A stretch of DNA of 64,000 nucleotides from an uncultured Kangiella sp. (GTDB lineage Bacteria > Pseudomonadota > Gammaproteobacteria > Enterobacterales > Kangiellaceae). Positions within the stretch are counted from its first letter, which is position 1; every line of letters starts with the position of its first letter. The notes beneath the pieces are model-generated. The model did no database searches, was not told the origin of the DNA, and saw only the letters and a list, made by a program, of their open reading frames with translations. Both the position numbers and the translations under genes were made by a program. This document shows positions 53,386-63,261 of the stretch, piece after piece. Where the stretch lies: contig CANMKR010000003.1 in NCBI GenBank assembly GCA_947498625.1, positions 310,001 through 374,000 on the forward strand, given 5' to 3'.

Positions 53386-53735
53386 GGGGGCGACATGGCT
53401 TCGACGTGGATTACGAACCTCTAGGTGCATGTCGAGATGTTAGCGAATCTCGTAAAATCAAAGCTAAAACTTTATAGTTGCAAACGAAGACAACTACGCT
53501 TTAGCCGCTTAATCGGCTAACTGTCGCCTCTGAGCGTTCTTGGTAGGAGCTCGACAGTCATTACAGGAACTAGCAGGTAACTGTGCTCGGCAGCCAACTG
53601 CGAAACTATCCTCGAGATCGTTTTACTAAGCCTGCCCATCGGCTCGAGTAAGATTAAATTAAAGGTGGTTCTAAACATGTAGAGCCTAGAGCAGAGGATT
53701 TGCGGACGGGGGTTCAATTCCCCCCGCCTCCACCA
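53386..53735 (+). ncRNA. ssrA: tmRNA (transfer-messenger RNA)
   Basis: This is a complete single-piece tmRNA. The 5' GGGGGCG pairs with the 3' CGCCUCC to form the acceptor stem, followed by ACCA. The T-arm has GGGGG / CCCCC around UUCAAUU. The tag frame at 53480-53512 encodes ANEDNYALAA and a stop. It tags proteins from stalled ribosomes for degradation, together with SmpB (4.3 kb upstream). The last 197 bases are repeated as a truncated copy at 62988-63182, which marks ssrA as the attachment site of the following island. Confidence 0.96.
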
Positions 53736-53738
53736 AAT

Positions 53739-54272
53739 TTATTGGCAACTTTCAACAGCTTGATTCTTTTTATTATTGTTCAACTCTGCAATCCAGCACT
53801 GATTATGGATAGAACAATAGCAAATTTTGATATTGCCCAAGCTTTCAAATTTACTCATAAAATATTGCGTATCATCATTCCAAGGAATCGAAAACATTTC
53901 CACATTTTCTCCAACACCAATAACGGTATTATCCGGAATGAAACCTCTATATACATCATGACCAAAAGCTTTTTCAGGACCAGAAACACTACGAATGAAT
54001 CTCTCTAAGTTTTGAAATTCTTCTTGCCCATTTAGTAGATTAATATCGGCTGTCAACGCAGGGCCTACGCCTTTATTTTGTAATTGAAGACTAAACCCTT
54101 CCTGACTATAACTGCCTTTTATTTGCAAATATGGCCAGACTTCAGCTTGTTGTTGCTCTTGAATTGTACTGAGTTCTAAAAAAGCAATAATGATTGAAGA
54201 CATTGATAATAAAACAGCTAAGCCTGAAGCTATACGACTTATCCAATCTGTATTTTGCTGAACATCACTCAT
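53739..54272 (-). CDS. Hypothetical membrane-anchored protein (177 aa)
   Basis: I do not recognise a family. AAGGAG precedes the ATG by about 7 bases. One hydrophobic segment lies near residues 13-33, with a soluble C-terminal domain containing IPWNDDTQYF and a cysteine-containing tail (ICYCSIHNQCW). Its stop is 3 bp from the 3' end of ssrA, on the opposite strand, which is the place where an integrase gene would normally sit. Nothing in it resembles a recombinase. It lies 10 bp downstream of the S41 peptidase gene on the same strand. Confidence 0.7.
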   Translation of the reverse strand: MSDVQQNTDWISRIASGLAVLLSMSSIIIAFLELSTIQEQQQAEVWPYLQIKGSYSQEGFSLQLQNKGVGPALTADINLLNGQEEFQNLERFIRSVSGPEKAFGHDVYRGFIPDNTVIGVGENVEMFSIPWNDDTQYFMSKFESLGNIKICYCSIHNQCWIAELNNNKKNQAVESCQ

Positions 54273-57218: not shown

Positions 57219-60720
<3,502 letters not shown>

Positions 60721-60810
60721 TTATTGGGAAAACCCAGTTAAAATAACGGTTCCTATAAAGAGAATTAAAATATTACAAGCGTATGAAACACGCATAGAAA
60801 AGTGCTCTCT

Positions 60811-60922
60811 CTTTATATTCACCTGACGAAAATTCGTCGGTTCAGGAATTGGCACCTTGCTTCCATGGAAAGCTGGTTGCCTGAGGGTCACAGAGCCTGT
60901 CTCTCACCTCATCGGTATAAAG
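60811..60922 (-). ncRNA. SAM-I (S-box) riboswitch upstream of metY
   Basis: Read on the minus strand, this has the S-box core: P1 strands CUUUAUA / UAUAAAG close the element, P2 is formed by UGAGG / CCUCA, and the conserved CAGGCAACC follows. Next come a P3 hairpin (GCUUUCC / GGAAGC), the invariant-looking AAGGUGCCAAUUCCUG, and a P4 hairpin GACGAAUUUUCGUC. It lies about 110 bp before metY. S-boxes turn down methionine genes when SAM binds. Whether the switch acts by termination or at translation is not clear from the sequence. Confidence 0.88.
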
Positions 60923-61270
60923 ATGTAAACCTTATTAAGGCTTACGTGTGTATTTTTAATTCATTCAATTATTAAAAGCAACTCTTTTTTTACATTCGAC
61001 CATTACATGGTGGTTATGGATGACTAACTGGCCTCGTTGCCTCAAAATATAGCCTGACAATATCTATCTAAATTTGTGTAGAATACAAAATTCTCCAATT
61101 TCTATTAAAAAAACTTGTACTACTTTTTAATTTTAGTATTATTTAAGTCAATCGTGATTTGATCCTATTGCCGCGATTTAAAAGAAGGTGCTAAAACGGA
61201 AAATAAATAATTCTACTCTGAATTCATATTTCCCCAGGATTTAACTTTAATAAACATTAGGAGTTTTCTA
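60923..61270. other. 348-bp intergenic region between the riboswitch and the AlkB-like gene
   Basis: No gene is seen here. It must carry the divergent promoters of the metY operon (minus) and the AlkB-like operon (plus). No strong promoter, palindrome or terminator could be singled out with confidence. Confidence 0.6.
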
Positions 61271-62410
61271 ATGCGATTTTTCGTGAATGCACGATATTTA
61301 ATCGTGCCTGTCTCTTCTATAGTGACGATTACAGGAGTCTTGCTGGGTGGAATTTATGCTTGGCTTGGCGTGGCTTTATTTGGTTTATATACGGTTGTTG
61401 ATACAGTGACCAAAAATATTCGATTTAGGGCTGAAAAGGATGCTAATGGCAATTCATATGGCGTCAAAACATTTCAATACTTAGTGATGTACTTGATGTT
61501 ACCGGTATTTATATTGCTACAACTAGTACTCGCATGGCGGCTATATCAGTATACTAGCGAAGTGCCGATTGAAGCTGCAAATATAGGTTTTTTTAATTAT
61601 CAGTTAGGGATTTCTGGGTTGCATTTAATTGGTGCAACTATCTCAACGGCACTATGGGCAGGGCTTGGTATCATCTATGGACATGAGTTGTCTCATAATA
61701 AAAAAGAGGGTTTCTTTGTTTCGCGTTTGATAATGGCTTTAAGCGGCGCATCACACTTTACTTATGCTCATGTTTATAACCACCATTTGGATCTGGGGCA
61801 TGAAGATGATCCTGCAACAGCACCAAGAGGTCGAAATGTTTATTGGCATGCTTGGTTATCGCATGTAGGGCAATCAAAGTTCTCTTATGATTTAGAAAAA
61901 AATAAGTTTAACCGACAAGAAAAATCGACTTTTAGTCTTAAAAACAGATGGATTTTGGGTTATCTATACAGTTTGCCATCGATATTTTTATTCGTATGGT
62001 CAGGTGGATTATTAGGTGTTATTGCGTTAATTATCGTTTGGACGATTTCCAATTTCTTATTAGAAGCGCTGAATTTTATGGGACATTACGGCTTAATAAG
62101 ACAGAAGGGAAAACCTGTTGAACATCGACATTCATGGGATAACGATAATGTTTTCACCAGTTGGTTTTTTATCGAAATCGGTCGCCAAGGTGATCACCAC
62201 GTTAGAGGTGAAACCTATTTTTGGGAGCTCGATGATGTTGGGGCACCAAATTATGGCATAGGTTATTTCTCCCTGTTCATTTTAACGTTAGTGCCATTCG
62301 TATTTCGTAAATTTGTAAAGCACTTACTTGAAGACTGGGATAATAACCGCGCAACTGATGAGGAGCGCTTGATTGCCAAGAAATTTCCATCCATTGGTAT
62401 CGAGAGTTAA
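61271..62410 (+). CDS. AlkB-like membrane di-iron oxygenase (alkane monooxygenase family)
   Basis: This 379-residue polytopic protein has the histidine boxes of the AlkB / fatty-acid desaturase superfamily: HELSH (138-142), HVYNHHLDLGH (167-177), GHYGL (His272), HRHSW (285-289) and GDHH (309-310). Hydrophobic segments flank the boxes. The HRHSWxND...GDHH region is AlkB-like, but the usual LQRHSDHH reads IGRQGDHH, so it is a divergent subgroup. AGGAG precedes the ATG. A [2Fe-2S] ferredoxin and a small membrane protein follow. The substrate (alkane, fatty acid, lipid or other) is unknown. Confidence 0.85.
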   Translation: MRFFVNARYLIVPVSSIVTITGVLLGGIYAWLGVALFGLYTVVDTVTKNIRFRAEKDANGNSYGVKTFQYLVMYLMLPVFILLQLVLAWRLYQYTSEVPIEAANIGFFNYQLGISGLHLIGATISTALWAGLGIIYGHELSHNKKEGFFVSRLIMALSGASHFTYAHVYNHHLDLGHEDDPATAPRGRNVYWHAWLSHVGQSKFSYDLEKNKFNRQEKSTFSLKNRWILGYLYSLPSIFLFVWSGGLLGVIALIIVWTISNFLLEALNFMGHYGLIRQKGKPVEHRHSWDNDNVFTSWFFIEIGRQGDHHVRGETYFWELDDVGAPNYGIGYFSLFILTLVPFVFRKFVKHLLEDWDNNRATDEERLIAKKFPSIGIES

Positions 62411-62415
62411 AGCAG

Positions 62416-62748
62416 ATGTTTGGTTTATTTGACAAAGCAAAAGAGCACACTGCTTACATTAACGATGAATCCTCTCCGATAATGCTTAAAGTTGAAAAAG
62501 GCAAAACCCTATTAAGTGCAGCTTTAAGCTCAGGCCTCCCATGGCCGCATCGTTGTAAAGTAGGTAGTTGTGGCTCTTGTAAAAGCCAAATTTTATCAGG
62601 AAAAATAAAACCACAAATTGATTTTACCTATGTTCTTAATGCTGACGAAATTGCTAACGGATACATTCTAGCTTGTCAGTCAGAACTATGCTCGGACGTT
62701 AGAGTAAAAGTCAATTTGGACAAAAGCAAAAAGAGGAGTAAATTATGA
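62416..62748 (+). CDS. Plant-type [2Fe-2S] ferredoxin
   Basis: This 110-residue ferredoxin has the cluster-binding cysteines C47, C52 and C55 (CKVGSCGSC) and C87 (LACQSE), the plant-type arrangement. It starts 5 bp after the AlkB-like gene and overlaps the next gene by 4 bp. It is the probable electron donor of the oxygenase, in place of the rubredoxin normally found with AlkB. No ferredoxin reductase gene is present in the window. Confidence 0.92.
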   Translation: MFGLFDKAKEHTAYINDESSPIMLKVEKGKTLLSAALSSGLPWPHRCKVGSCGSCKSQILSGKIKPQIDFTYVLNADEIANGYILACQSELCSDVRVKVNLDKSKKRSKL

Positions 62749-62957
62749 AAAGTCTCAAAGCCTTTATTATCATGGCACTTTGGACAGCATTAATCGGTTA
62801 TGGCCTATATACTGCCGAAGCTCATTGGCATTATCGCAAAATAGAATGGGCATTAGCAATATCGGTTATTCTATTATTAACGCATATGTCGAATATGGTG
62901 ATTTACTTTAAACTAACCGGTAAAGAGCCTTATCAGTGGTTTAAGAGTAATAACTAA
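62745..62957 (+). CDS. Small two-helix membrane protein (70 aa) of the AlkB-like operon
   Basis: I do not recognise this family. There are two hydrophobic helices (about residues 5-23 and 35-54) with a His-rich connecting loop (EAHWHYRKIEW). AAGAGGAG precedes the ATG, which overlaps the ferredoxin stop as ATGA. It is probably a subunit or assembly partner of the oxygenase (inference from tight coupling). The operon ends here, 30 bp before the ssrA fragment. Confidence 0.8.
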   Translation: MKSLKAFIIMALWTALIGYGLYTAEAHWHYRKIEWALAISVILLLTHMSNMVIYFKLTGKEPYQWFKSNN

Positions 62958-62987: not shown

Positions 62988-63182
62988 CTTGGTAGGAGCT
63001 CGACAGTCATTACAGGAACTAGCAGGTAACTGTGCTCGGCAGCCAACTGCGAAACTATCCTCGAAATCATCTTACTAAGCCTGCCCATCGACTCGAGTTC
63101 GATTAAATTAAAGATGGTTCTAAACATGTAGAGCCTAAAGCAGAGGATTTGCGGACGGGGTTCAATTCCCCCGCCTCCACCA
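62988..63182 (+). pseudogene. Truncated copy of ssrA (3' half), probable displaced attachment fragment
   Basis: These 195 bp match the last 197 bp of ssrA (53539-53735) with eight substitutions and two single-base deletions; the first ~75 bases are identical. It includes the T-arm and CCA end but lacks the 5' acceptor strand and the tag reading frame, so it cannot work as tmRNA. The two deletions remove one base from each side of the T-stem. It is most simply the chromosomal ssrA end displaced by an insertion. Confidence 0.9.
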
Positions 63183-63261
63183 ATTTAGATCCTTTCTTTA
63201 TTATCAATTAACCATTGACGAATCATTAACGTTTACAGCTATACTGTAAGAAAAAACGATA

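Follow-up and report, generated by a model that had tools for sequence, protein, structure and literature searches.

An AlkB-like oxygenase operon with a probable SAM-II-type riboswitch in Kangiella: a candidate cassette for sulfur assimilation

A conserved three-gene operon

We analysed a 64,000-nucleotide stretch of DNA from an uncultured Kangiella sp. (contig CANMKR010000003.1, positions 310,001 to 374,000; "the window"), whose own genome has a size of 2.32 Mb. Near its end lies a compact operon encoding an AlkB-like membrane oxygenase (here HYD), a plant-type ferredoxin and a small protein of 70 residues (SM), preceded by a probable riboswitch for S-adenosylmethionine (SAM) and neighboured upstream by metY and metX (Table 1). 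The three-gene operon is real: the open reading frames (ORFs) are separated by a 5-bp gap and then a 4-bp overlap, exactly as a preliminary description of this DNA, made from the sequence alone, had reported.

A scan of genome contigs with HYD returned 33 loci, 30 of which (L030-L057, L060 and L062) encode proteins about 68-97% identical to that of the window and constitute a group that we call G-type. Here L numbers denote genome-contig stretches and G numbers genomes, G000 being the window's own; "G-type", "E-type" and "Q-clan" are names coined in this analysis. The closest named relative is that of Kangiella sp. HZ709 (97%). A search of 20 genomes of the genus, counting the window's own, found a HYD of at least 90% identity in 3, so the unit is patchy within the genus. 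The gammaproteobacterial hosts comprise two Kangiella records, SAR86, Porticoccaceae, Woeseiaceae and other metagenome-assembled genomes (MAGs), and beyond them the group reaches the alphaproteobacterial OCS116 and MED-G09 and Actinomycetota of the Acidimicrobiales type; these names are taken from record titles, and some of the MAGs may be mis-binned. The order HYD-ferredoxin-SM is kept in 28 of the 30 related loci. In L053 the order is SM-HYD-ferredoxin, and in L033 HYD has neither ferredoxin nor SM downstream. Conservation of the operon across the 30 named G-type loci is far above chance. A single scan of viral contigs, with the window protein as sole query, revealed no phage-borne copy. In a sample of Alphaproteobacteria, AlkB-like matches occurred in 24 of 289 genomes: two cassette genomes scored above 700 bits and all others below 190 bits, hence we see no E-type protein in that sample.

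Table 1. Features at the operon and in its surroundings (window coordinates)
Feature	Coordinates	Strand	Basis or remark
Fused ORF: alpha/beta-hydrolase (metX-like, by eye) and homoserine dehydrogenase	57219..59453	-	PF00561 5.1e-15, PF00742 5.9e-42
metY-like O-acetylhomoserine sulfhydrylase	59374..60702	-	PF01053 3.8e-135; exact name metY by eye
SAM-I riboswitch (RF00162) of the metY-metX unit	60810..60923	-	73.9 bits
Probable SAM-II-type riboswitch (Rfam RF00521, SAM_alpha)	61141..61215	+	operon leader, 35.2 bits
Proposed pseudoknot, 5' strand AUCCU	61162..61166	+	pairs with 61236-61240
Proposed pseudoknot, 3' strand AGGAU	61236..61240	+	pairs with 61162-61166
HYD, predicted AlkB-fold membrane di-iron oxygenase, Q-clan, G-type, 379 residues	61271..62410	+	Pfam, PDB matches, tree
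Plant-type 2Fe-2S ferredoxin, stand-alone, 110 residues, presumed electron donor	62416..62748	+	PF00111, PDB ferredoxin matches
SM, 70 residues, two predicted membrane helices	62745..62957	+	hydropathy; no family over cut-off
Direct repeat of the 3' part of the transfer-messenger RNA (tmRNA) gene (source 53539-53739)	62988..63186	+	94.5% identical; possible island boundary

A separate oxygenase clade and its partners

HYD matches the Pfam family FA_desaturase (PF00487, 2.2e-23) and the solved chains of the alkane hydroxylase AlkB (8sbb, 2.2e-24; 8f6t, 4.3e-22), while an NCBIfam search gave no match. The predicted structure (AlphaFold, mean predicted local distance difference test score, pLDDT, of 78.5) was compared with these chains, giving Z 24.7 for 8f6t (root-mean-square deviation 3.7, 314 residues aligned) and Z 21.4 for 8sbb (4.3, 321 residues). 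According to the model HYD has the AlkB fold, which is matched far above all else; it is a variant of a known fold and not a new one. The pLDDT falls below 50 at residues 174-183, 289-292, 311-315 and 317-323, which adjoin the metal site.

In 8F6T, the second iron (Fe2) is bound by His171, His272, His311, His315 and Glu271 (PMC10113152; papers are cited from excerpts here and throughout). A second structure group reports nine invariant iron-binding histidines and a Glu side chain that is not well resolved (PMC10110569). When the AlkB positions are mapped by sequence alignment (the match to the solved AlkB chains and our alignment A1) and not by atomic superposition, Gln306 of HYD stands in place of His311 and Gly271 in place of Glu271. 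In all 32 rows of A1 the nine positions of the iron-binding histidines hold eight His and this Gln; where AlkB has Glu271, all 29 G-type rows show Gly and the three E-type rows retain Glu. The terminal box of the window protein was correctly read before as IGRQGDHH. Across the 98 rows of our tree, the first residue of this last HxxHH box is Gln in all 51 members of the clade (29/29 G-type and 22/22 E-type) and His in all 47 rows outside it.

The phylogeny obtained places the Q-clan on its own branch (support 100/100) and the G-type on a 100/100 branch within it. With midpoint rooting, the rubredoxin AlkBs fall on the opposite side from the Q-clan, and XylM and the ferredoxin-type AlkBs on the same side; the order among these outer groups is unsure, because the tree program flags adjoining long branches. 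Duplicate loci, the fragments L075 and L104, L057, L062 and the 816-residue protein of L105 were left out of the tree, and the Polaromonas sequence was trimmed to its last 400 residues. A second AlkB-like protein of the window's genome (L028, G000:C2:569268-570032), with a His box (HSD), clusters with other proteins of the genus on the rubredoxin-AlkB side.

Protein 2 of the operon is a plant-type 2Fe-2S ferredoxin (PF00111, 1.8e-14), which holds the same position in 28 of the 30 related loci and is present in L053 too. Within the operon the presumed donor gene is one for a plant-type ferredoxin, as described previously. The earlier statement that no reductase is nearby also stands, as none occurs among the genes adjacent to the operon; no search for one elsewhere was made. 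In the G-type this ferredoxin stands alone, whereas four E-type donors (L059, L095, L106 and L110) combine Fer2, FAD_binding_6 and NAD_binding_1 domains.

HYD shares with FtAlkB (8F6T / 8SBB) its predicted fold and eight of nine iron-binding histidines, and differs from it in the residues at two Fe2 ligand positions, in having a ferredoxin gene and not a rubredoxin gene at its side, and in belonging to a separate clade. The XylM/XylA pairs of pWW0 and pNL1 resemble the cassette in that a 2Fe-2S donor gene lies beside the hydroxylase, which is 28% identical to HYD over 96% and lies in the same half of the midpoint-rooted tree. The gene beside XylM on pWW0 encodes the reductase XylA. XylM, however, retains His in its last box (TNHINHH) and lies in another clade, and the donor has about 350 residues, in contrast to the lone ferredoxin of the G-type. 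Neither SM nor a SAM riboswitch is reported for these plasmids, in which no search for the two was made. AlkBs that receive electrons through plant-type ferredoxins, fused to ferredoxin and reductase in Polaromonas or encoded by separate genes in Hydrocarboniclastica, have a His box (HSH), form a separate clade, and are fused or paired with a larger donor; such fusions have been published (PMC8918992). Since the pWW0 neighbour of XylM and the fused AlkBs precede it, a plant-type ferredoxin donor is not new in itself.

The third protein, SM, matches no Pfam family at cut-off and no NCBIfam family; hydropathy predicts two membrane helices. Seven residues are invariant in 26 G-type rows (W35, H47, N50, Y54, F55, P62 and W65), and after adding six E-type rows only M1 and W35 remain so. 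A profile of SM was searched against a class sample of 369 genomes and matched 12 of them, own included, all of which are among the 13 that carry a Q-clan hydroxylase; G306 is the sole one of the 13 without a match. The profile matches only with its second half in three of the 12 (G201, G313 and G409), and SM does not adjoin HYD in several genomes. Because SM is confined to genomes with Q-clan HYD in this sample, it is a dedicated partner of the clade, possibly a subunit or assembly factor. The preliminary description had named close clustering with rubredoxin-using alkane hydroxylases and absence of the small gene from all homologous operons as outcomes contrary to it; neither occurred, as the Q-clan lies apart from both those enzymes and XylM, and SM is conserved.

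Probable SAM riboswitches in the leaders, and methionine genes

The leader of the operon matches SAM_alpha with E 1.9e-6 in 401 bases at relaxed thresholds. The same family exceeds its gathering score directly before HYD in L042, L046, L047, L051, L056 and L060, and ten more loci reach 26.5-34.5 bits at relaxed thresholds (L031, L034, L035, L036, L039, L041, L043, L044, L045 and L052), L041 with two copies. The remaining G-type leaders were searched at gathering only, L030 was not searched with Rfam, and L062 starts inside HYD and has no leader. A core pattern of SAM-II is present in 29 of 30 G-type leaders, and 17 of these 29 have an Rfam match (six over gathering). Across 216 records there are 39 occurrences of the pattern, spread over 36 records that all represent the window or the cassette; the 50 E-type records contain none. 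The exception among G-type leaders, L053, has a SAM-I/IV riboswitch before its SM-HYD-ferredoxin unit. Nine E-type stretches, as well as L058, L059, L061 and L101, have no riboswitch at gathering. In three SAR86 loci (L038, L039 and L041) tandem cores lie about 110 bases apart before HYD.

We drew the P1 helix and the AUCCU/AGGAU pseudoknot from these leader sequences themselves. In a 27-row leader alignment 96.2% of the cells of both elements are paired, compared to 22-45% when the pairing is slid. Column pair 18/98 of the pseudoknot has changed on both sides in 5 of the 27 rows. Such both-side changes affect three pairs, a count also reached by 43 of 500 shuffles, and nine cells, a count reached by none. 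The assignment of the leader element to the SAM-II type is very probably correct on sequence grounds, and we infer that the switch binds SAM and represses the operon.

The gene that accompanies the cassette in Acidimicrobiales is homologous to the metY-like gene of the window. In all seven actinobacterial loci metY precedes the cassette by about 130-180 bp on the same strand, and in the window and L030 it is divergent from the cassette. Six of the seven actinobacterial metY genes have their own SAM-I/IV riboswitch, and the seventh is truncated at the end of its locus. The metX-like and homoserine dehydrogenase domains of the window form one ORF of 744 residues with a TTG start. In five loci a gene of the OmpW family, recognised by clustering and confirmed by Pfam for L044, follows the cassette. 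That of L062 lies behind a SAM-I/IV riboswitch (960-1051), and in L044 and L045 (7768-7836 in each) a SAM-V match of 38.2-38.4 bits (gathering 41) ends 3-4 bases before the OmpW start codon.

Comparable regulation is known from marine bacteria: in Pelagibacter, SAM-II and SAM-V riboswitches lie over genes of reduced-sulfur assimilation (bhmT, mmuM, metX and metY), which interconvert methanethiol, methionine and homocysteine (PMC5069961); the switch of the window precedes an oxygenase. Direct capture of methanethiol provided 33% and 50% of methionine in two Ruegeria species, the rest coming from reassembly (PMC7157515). For SAR86, the excerpted text finds no support for sulfate incorporation except a permease in one family (PMC11582366). 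Only 5 of 31 G-type genomes, G000 not among them, have a strong match (E <1e-40) to PF01507 of sulfate assimilation. Many G-type genomes are incomplete MAGs and E-type genomes mostly have no such match either, so this scarcity is consistent with a role in sulfur supply and goes no further.

A sister clade in genomes with methanethiol oxidase, and a proposed role of the cassette

The HYD proteins of L058, L059 and L061 (47-51% identical to that of the window) are of the E-type and are encoded together with a truncated globin and a ferredoxin-reductase protein of 352-375 residues (in L059, by Pfam, Bac_globin and Fer2, FAD and NAD domains). In the class sample, 12 genomes besides the window's carry E-type HYD; one of them, G313, is assigned by score only, as its HYD is in fragments and the box was not read. 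The methanethiol oxidase SBP56 (MtoX) was detected (E <=0.001) in all 12 and in 38 of the remaining 356 genomes (Fisher 1.1e-11); G233, one of the 50 positives, lies below the family cut-off. The association holds in seven of seven families. Among 30 class genomes having only His-type AlkB relatives, six have SBP56. Together with the three named E-type genomes, all positive, the count is 15 of 15. The gene fae was found in 13 of the 15 (the 12 of the class sample, where its background is unmeasured, and the Thiobacillus record) and not in G455, G456 or G000.

HYD and SBP56 lie on one contig at 1.3 kb in G181 (a copy cut by the contig end), 1.9 kb in L058, 4.5 kb in G313, 4.7 kb in G201 and 8.7 kb in L061, contig numbers for L058 and L061 being matched by hand; no such closeness was seen in the other ten E-type genomes. 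L110, from G201, continues through SBP56 and a SCO1/MauG fusion, an arrangement described for mtoX clusters (PMC6548844, PMC5739008). A further protein of L110 was judged FadL-like by eye; we rejected this identity, as Pfam gave no FadL match, and its counterpart in L112 does match Toluene_X/FadL.

Several E-type loci differ in layout. L095 and L098 (G104 and G244) have the row HYD, truncated globin, 4Fe-4S protein, glutathione S-transferase-like protein, ferredoxin reductase of about 360 residues and SM (names by Pfam for L095), and both genomes hold further HYD copies, two of which are identical over the aligned columns. In L094, L097, L105, L107 and L111, HYD has no adjoining ferredoxin or SM and lies beside a MerR-type regulator (Pfam, L111), with FabA (Pfam, L107) and TraB/GumN (Pfam, L111) near such lone copies. 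Region 411-4131 of L101 holds consecutive genes for a photolyase-like protein (identified by eye), a regulator of the MerR type (by Pfam) and E-type HYD, an arrangement that is perhaps light-regulated.

Taken together, the SAM riboswitch, the association with metY and a sister clade that goes with methanethiol oxidase, none of which the preliminary description had noticed, argue for sulfur or methionine supply and not for alkane or lipid hydroxylation, and a role of the G-type in such supply is quite probable. The earlier reading is partly borne out, as regards an AlkB-fold protein apart from the rubredoxin AlkBs, its pairing with a ferredoxin and the conserved 70-residue gene, while the pointers lead away from alkanes and lipids.

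As the best explanation, to which we give a probability of about one half, we propose that the window contains a SAM-riboswitch-controlled sulfur-assimilation cassette, in which G-type HYD is a methyl-sulfide oxygenase that provides methanethiol for methionine, with dimethyl sulfide (DMS) as substrate. Operon, conservation, fold, clade, ligand positions, riboswitch homology and metY neighborhood were computed; for substrate, chemistry, electron path, the role of SM and the feed into methionine we suggest the following. When SAM is scarce, the SAM-II-type element would let the operon be expressed. Electrons would flow from a housekeeping ferredoxin reductase through the adjacent 2Fe-2S ferredoxin to HYD, an integral-membrane di-iron oxygenase with a modified Fe2 site, SM perhaps serving as subunit or assembly factor. 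HYD would hydroxylate one methyl group of its substrate, a small and lipophilic methylated sulfur compound that is most likely DMS, and the hemithioacetal would break down to methanethiol and formaldehyde. MetY could then join methanethiol with O-acetylhomoserine to give methionine. In some lineages the substrate may enter through the OmpW-family porin under its own SAM riboswitch. The flavin-dependent enzyme DmoA catalyses the reaction proposed here; HYD matches FA_desaturase in Pfam and no flavin enzyme. DMS is converted to methanethiol by DmoA (PMC13360808).

Demethylation of methyl sulfides as one chemistry would explain both the E-type data (catabolism) and the G-type data (SAM-regulated sulfur supply), and the E-type is best read as the catabolic counterpart of the assimilatory G-type. 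More tentatively, the Q-clan as a whole may represent unrecognised DMS-demethylating membrane di-iron oxygenases. The E-type would be the missing enzyme that opens DMS breakdown in methylotrophs and sulfur oxidisers that have methanethiol oxidase (Thiobacillus-like, perhaps Methylophaga), and the G-type a SAM-switched, sulfur-limited marine DMS sink spread over SAR86, Porticoccaceae, Alphaproteobacteria, Acidimicrobiales and Kangiella. According to excerpts of PMC6548844, proteomics and transcriptomics did not identify the first DMS enzyme of Methylophaga thiooxydans, and among the transcripts that increase on DMS are those for methanethiol oxidases, a porin and a "fatty acid desaturase". The locus tag of the latter, MDMS009_226, appears to lie among those of the mtoX cluster, and our guess is that the protein belongs to the Q-clan.

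Several observations weigh against the proposed DMS cassette. With RF00521 the window falls 0.8 bits short of the gathering score (36), and only 6 of the 28 G-type relatives whose leaders were searched exceed it; the leaders of L032 and L033 have no Rfam match even at E 0.1, so that a riboswitch there rests on the core motif. In the examined stretches of the other 22 named loci, including that of Kangiella L046, metY is not beside the cassette, and the metY link amounts to two independent cases at most, since it is found in one actinobacterial and one Kangiella lineage. SBP56 is present in just 2 of 31 G-type genomes (2 of 30 named), so that the link to methyl sulfides reaches the window through the sister clade only; a methanethiol-oxidase route for the Kangiella itself was considered and dropped, as its genome lacks SBP56. 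In family f69, 17 of the 19 genomes have SBP56, and three of these 17 lack a Q-clan HYD (13 of 14 with a strong HYD, 3 of 4 without, and G753, which has a HYD fragment), and because this family shows no contrast, lifestyle may explain part of the association. Strong PF01507 matches do not discriminate, being absent from 12 of 15 E-type genomes as well. In M. thiooxydans, DMS monooxygenase activity was not detected and a methyltransferase had earlier been proposed (excerpts of PMC6548844), which speaks against an oxygenase there unless the assay missed a membrane enzyme. Finally, loss of the Glu ligand in the G-type could mean another substrate or reaction.

This last point bears on the nearest alternative, that the same regulon acts on another lipophilic organosulfur compound (dimethyl disulfide, dimethyl sulfone or a methylthio-alkane), or by S-oxygenation, and likewise feeds methionine. 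The riboswitch and the metY link fix the purpose and not the substrate, and the changes at the positions of Glu271 and His311 could mark such a shift. We nevertheless regard it as rather unlikely, as an E-type with methanethiol oxidase and fae fits best a reaction that yields methanethiol and formaldehyde.

An ordinary alkane or methyl-aromatic hydroxylase of the AlkB/XylM kind, used for carbon, would agree with the AlkB fold, the XylM-like length and the 2Fe-2S donor. The OmpW family, to which AlkL belongs, is found downstream in five loci, and actinobacterial loci have a gene like those of short-chain dehydrogenases/reductases some kilobases downstream. A specialisation of SAR86 in aromatic compounds has also been suggested (PMC11582366). 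The separate clade with Gln in its last box, SAM-riboswitch-type elements in every one of the 30 G-type leaders (the core motif in 29, SAM-I/IV in one) and a neighborhood in which no alkane-pathway gene set was seen by eye make this improbable. Equally improbable is a fatty-acid or lipid desaturase or hydroxylase for membrane homeostasis, which the PF00487 name, the QxxHH box of front-end desaturases, FabA near some E-type copies and the membrane role proposed for the DMS-induced Methylophaga "fatty acid desaturase" (PMC6548844) would favor, but not the SAM-type control of the G-type, a predicted fold nearest to AlkB, or the co-occurrence of the E-type with methylotrophy and methanethiol oxidase.

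If the proposed DMS cassette is correct, a marine sulfur-acquisition enzyme has been hidden under names given to its distant relatives, "alkane 1-monooxygenase" and "fatty acid desaturase", and bacteria seemingly unable to reduce sulfate would be able to make methionine from volatile methyl sulfides. Such a cassette would also provide a candidate for the first DMS enzyme not found in M. thiooxydans (PMC6548844, excerpts) and an example of a di-iron site with two AlkB Fe2 ligands replaced. By itself, the SAM switch already offers a clear and testable hint at the function of a membrane oxygenase that could not otherwise be placed. In the titles and abstracts of open-licence literature (subscription journals are not covered) we found no paper joining an AlkB-like oxygenase to SAM riboswitches or DMS.

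The cassette may be mobile. Together with its 201-bp source 9.4 kb away, the tmRNA repeat encloses metX-metY and the cassette, which looks like a genomic-island boundary at ssrA, although no integrase was seen by eye among the window ORFs listed at the repeat segment. In L030 a tmRNA end (98.5%) lies before metX, with no second copy in the stretch examined. The next gene downstream of the operon in the window, from 63262, encodes a transporter of the bile-acid-symporter family (PF01758, 1.7e-38).

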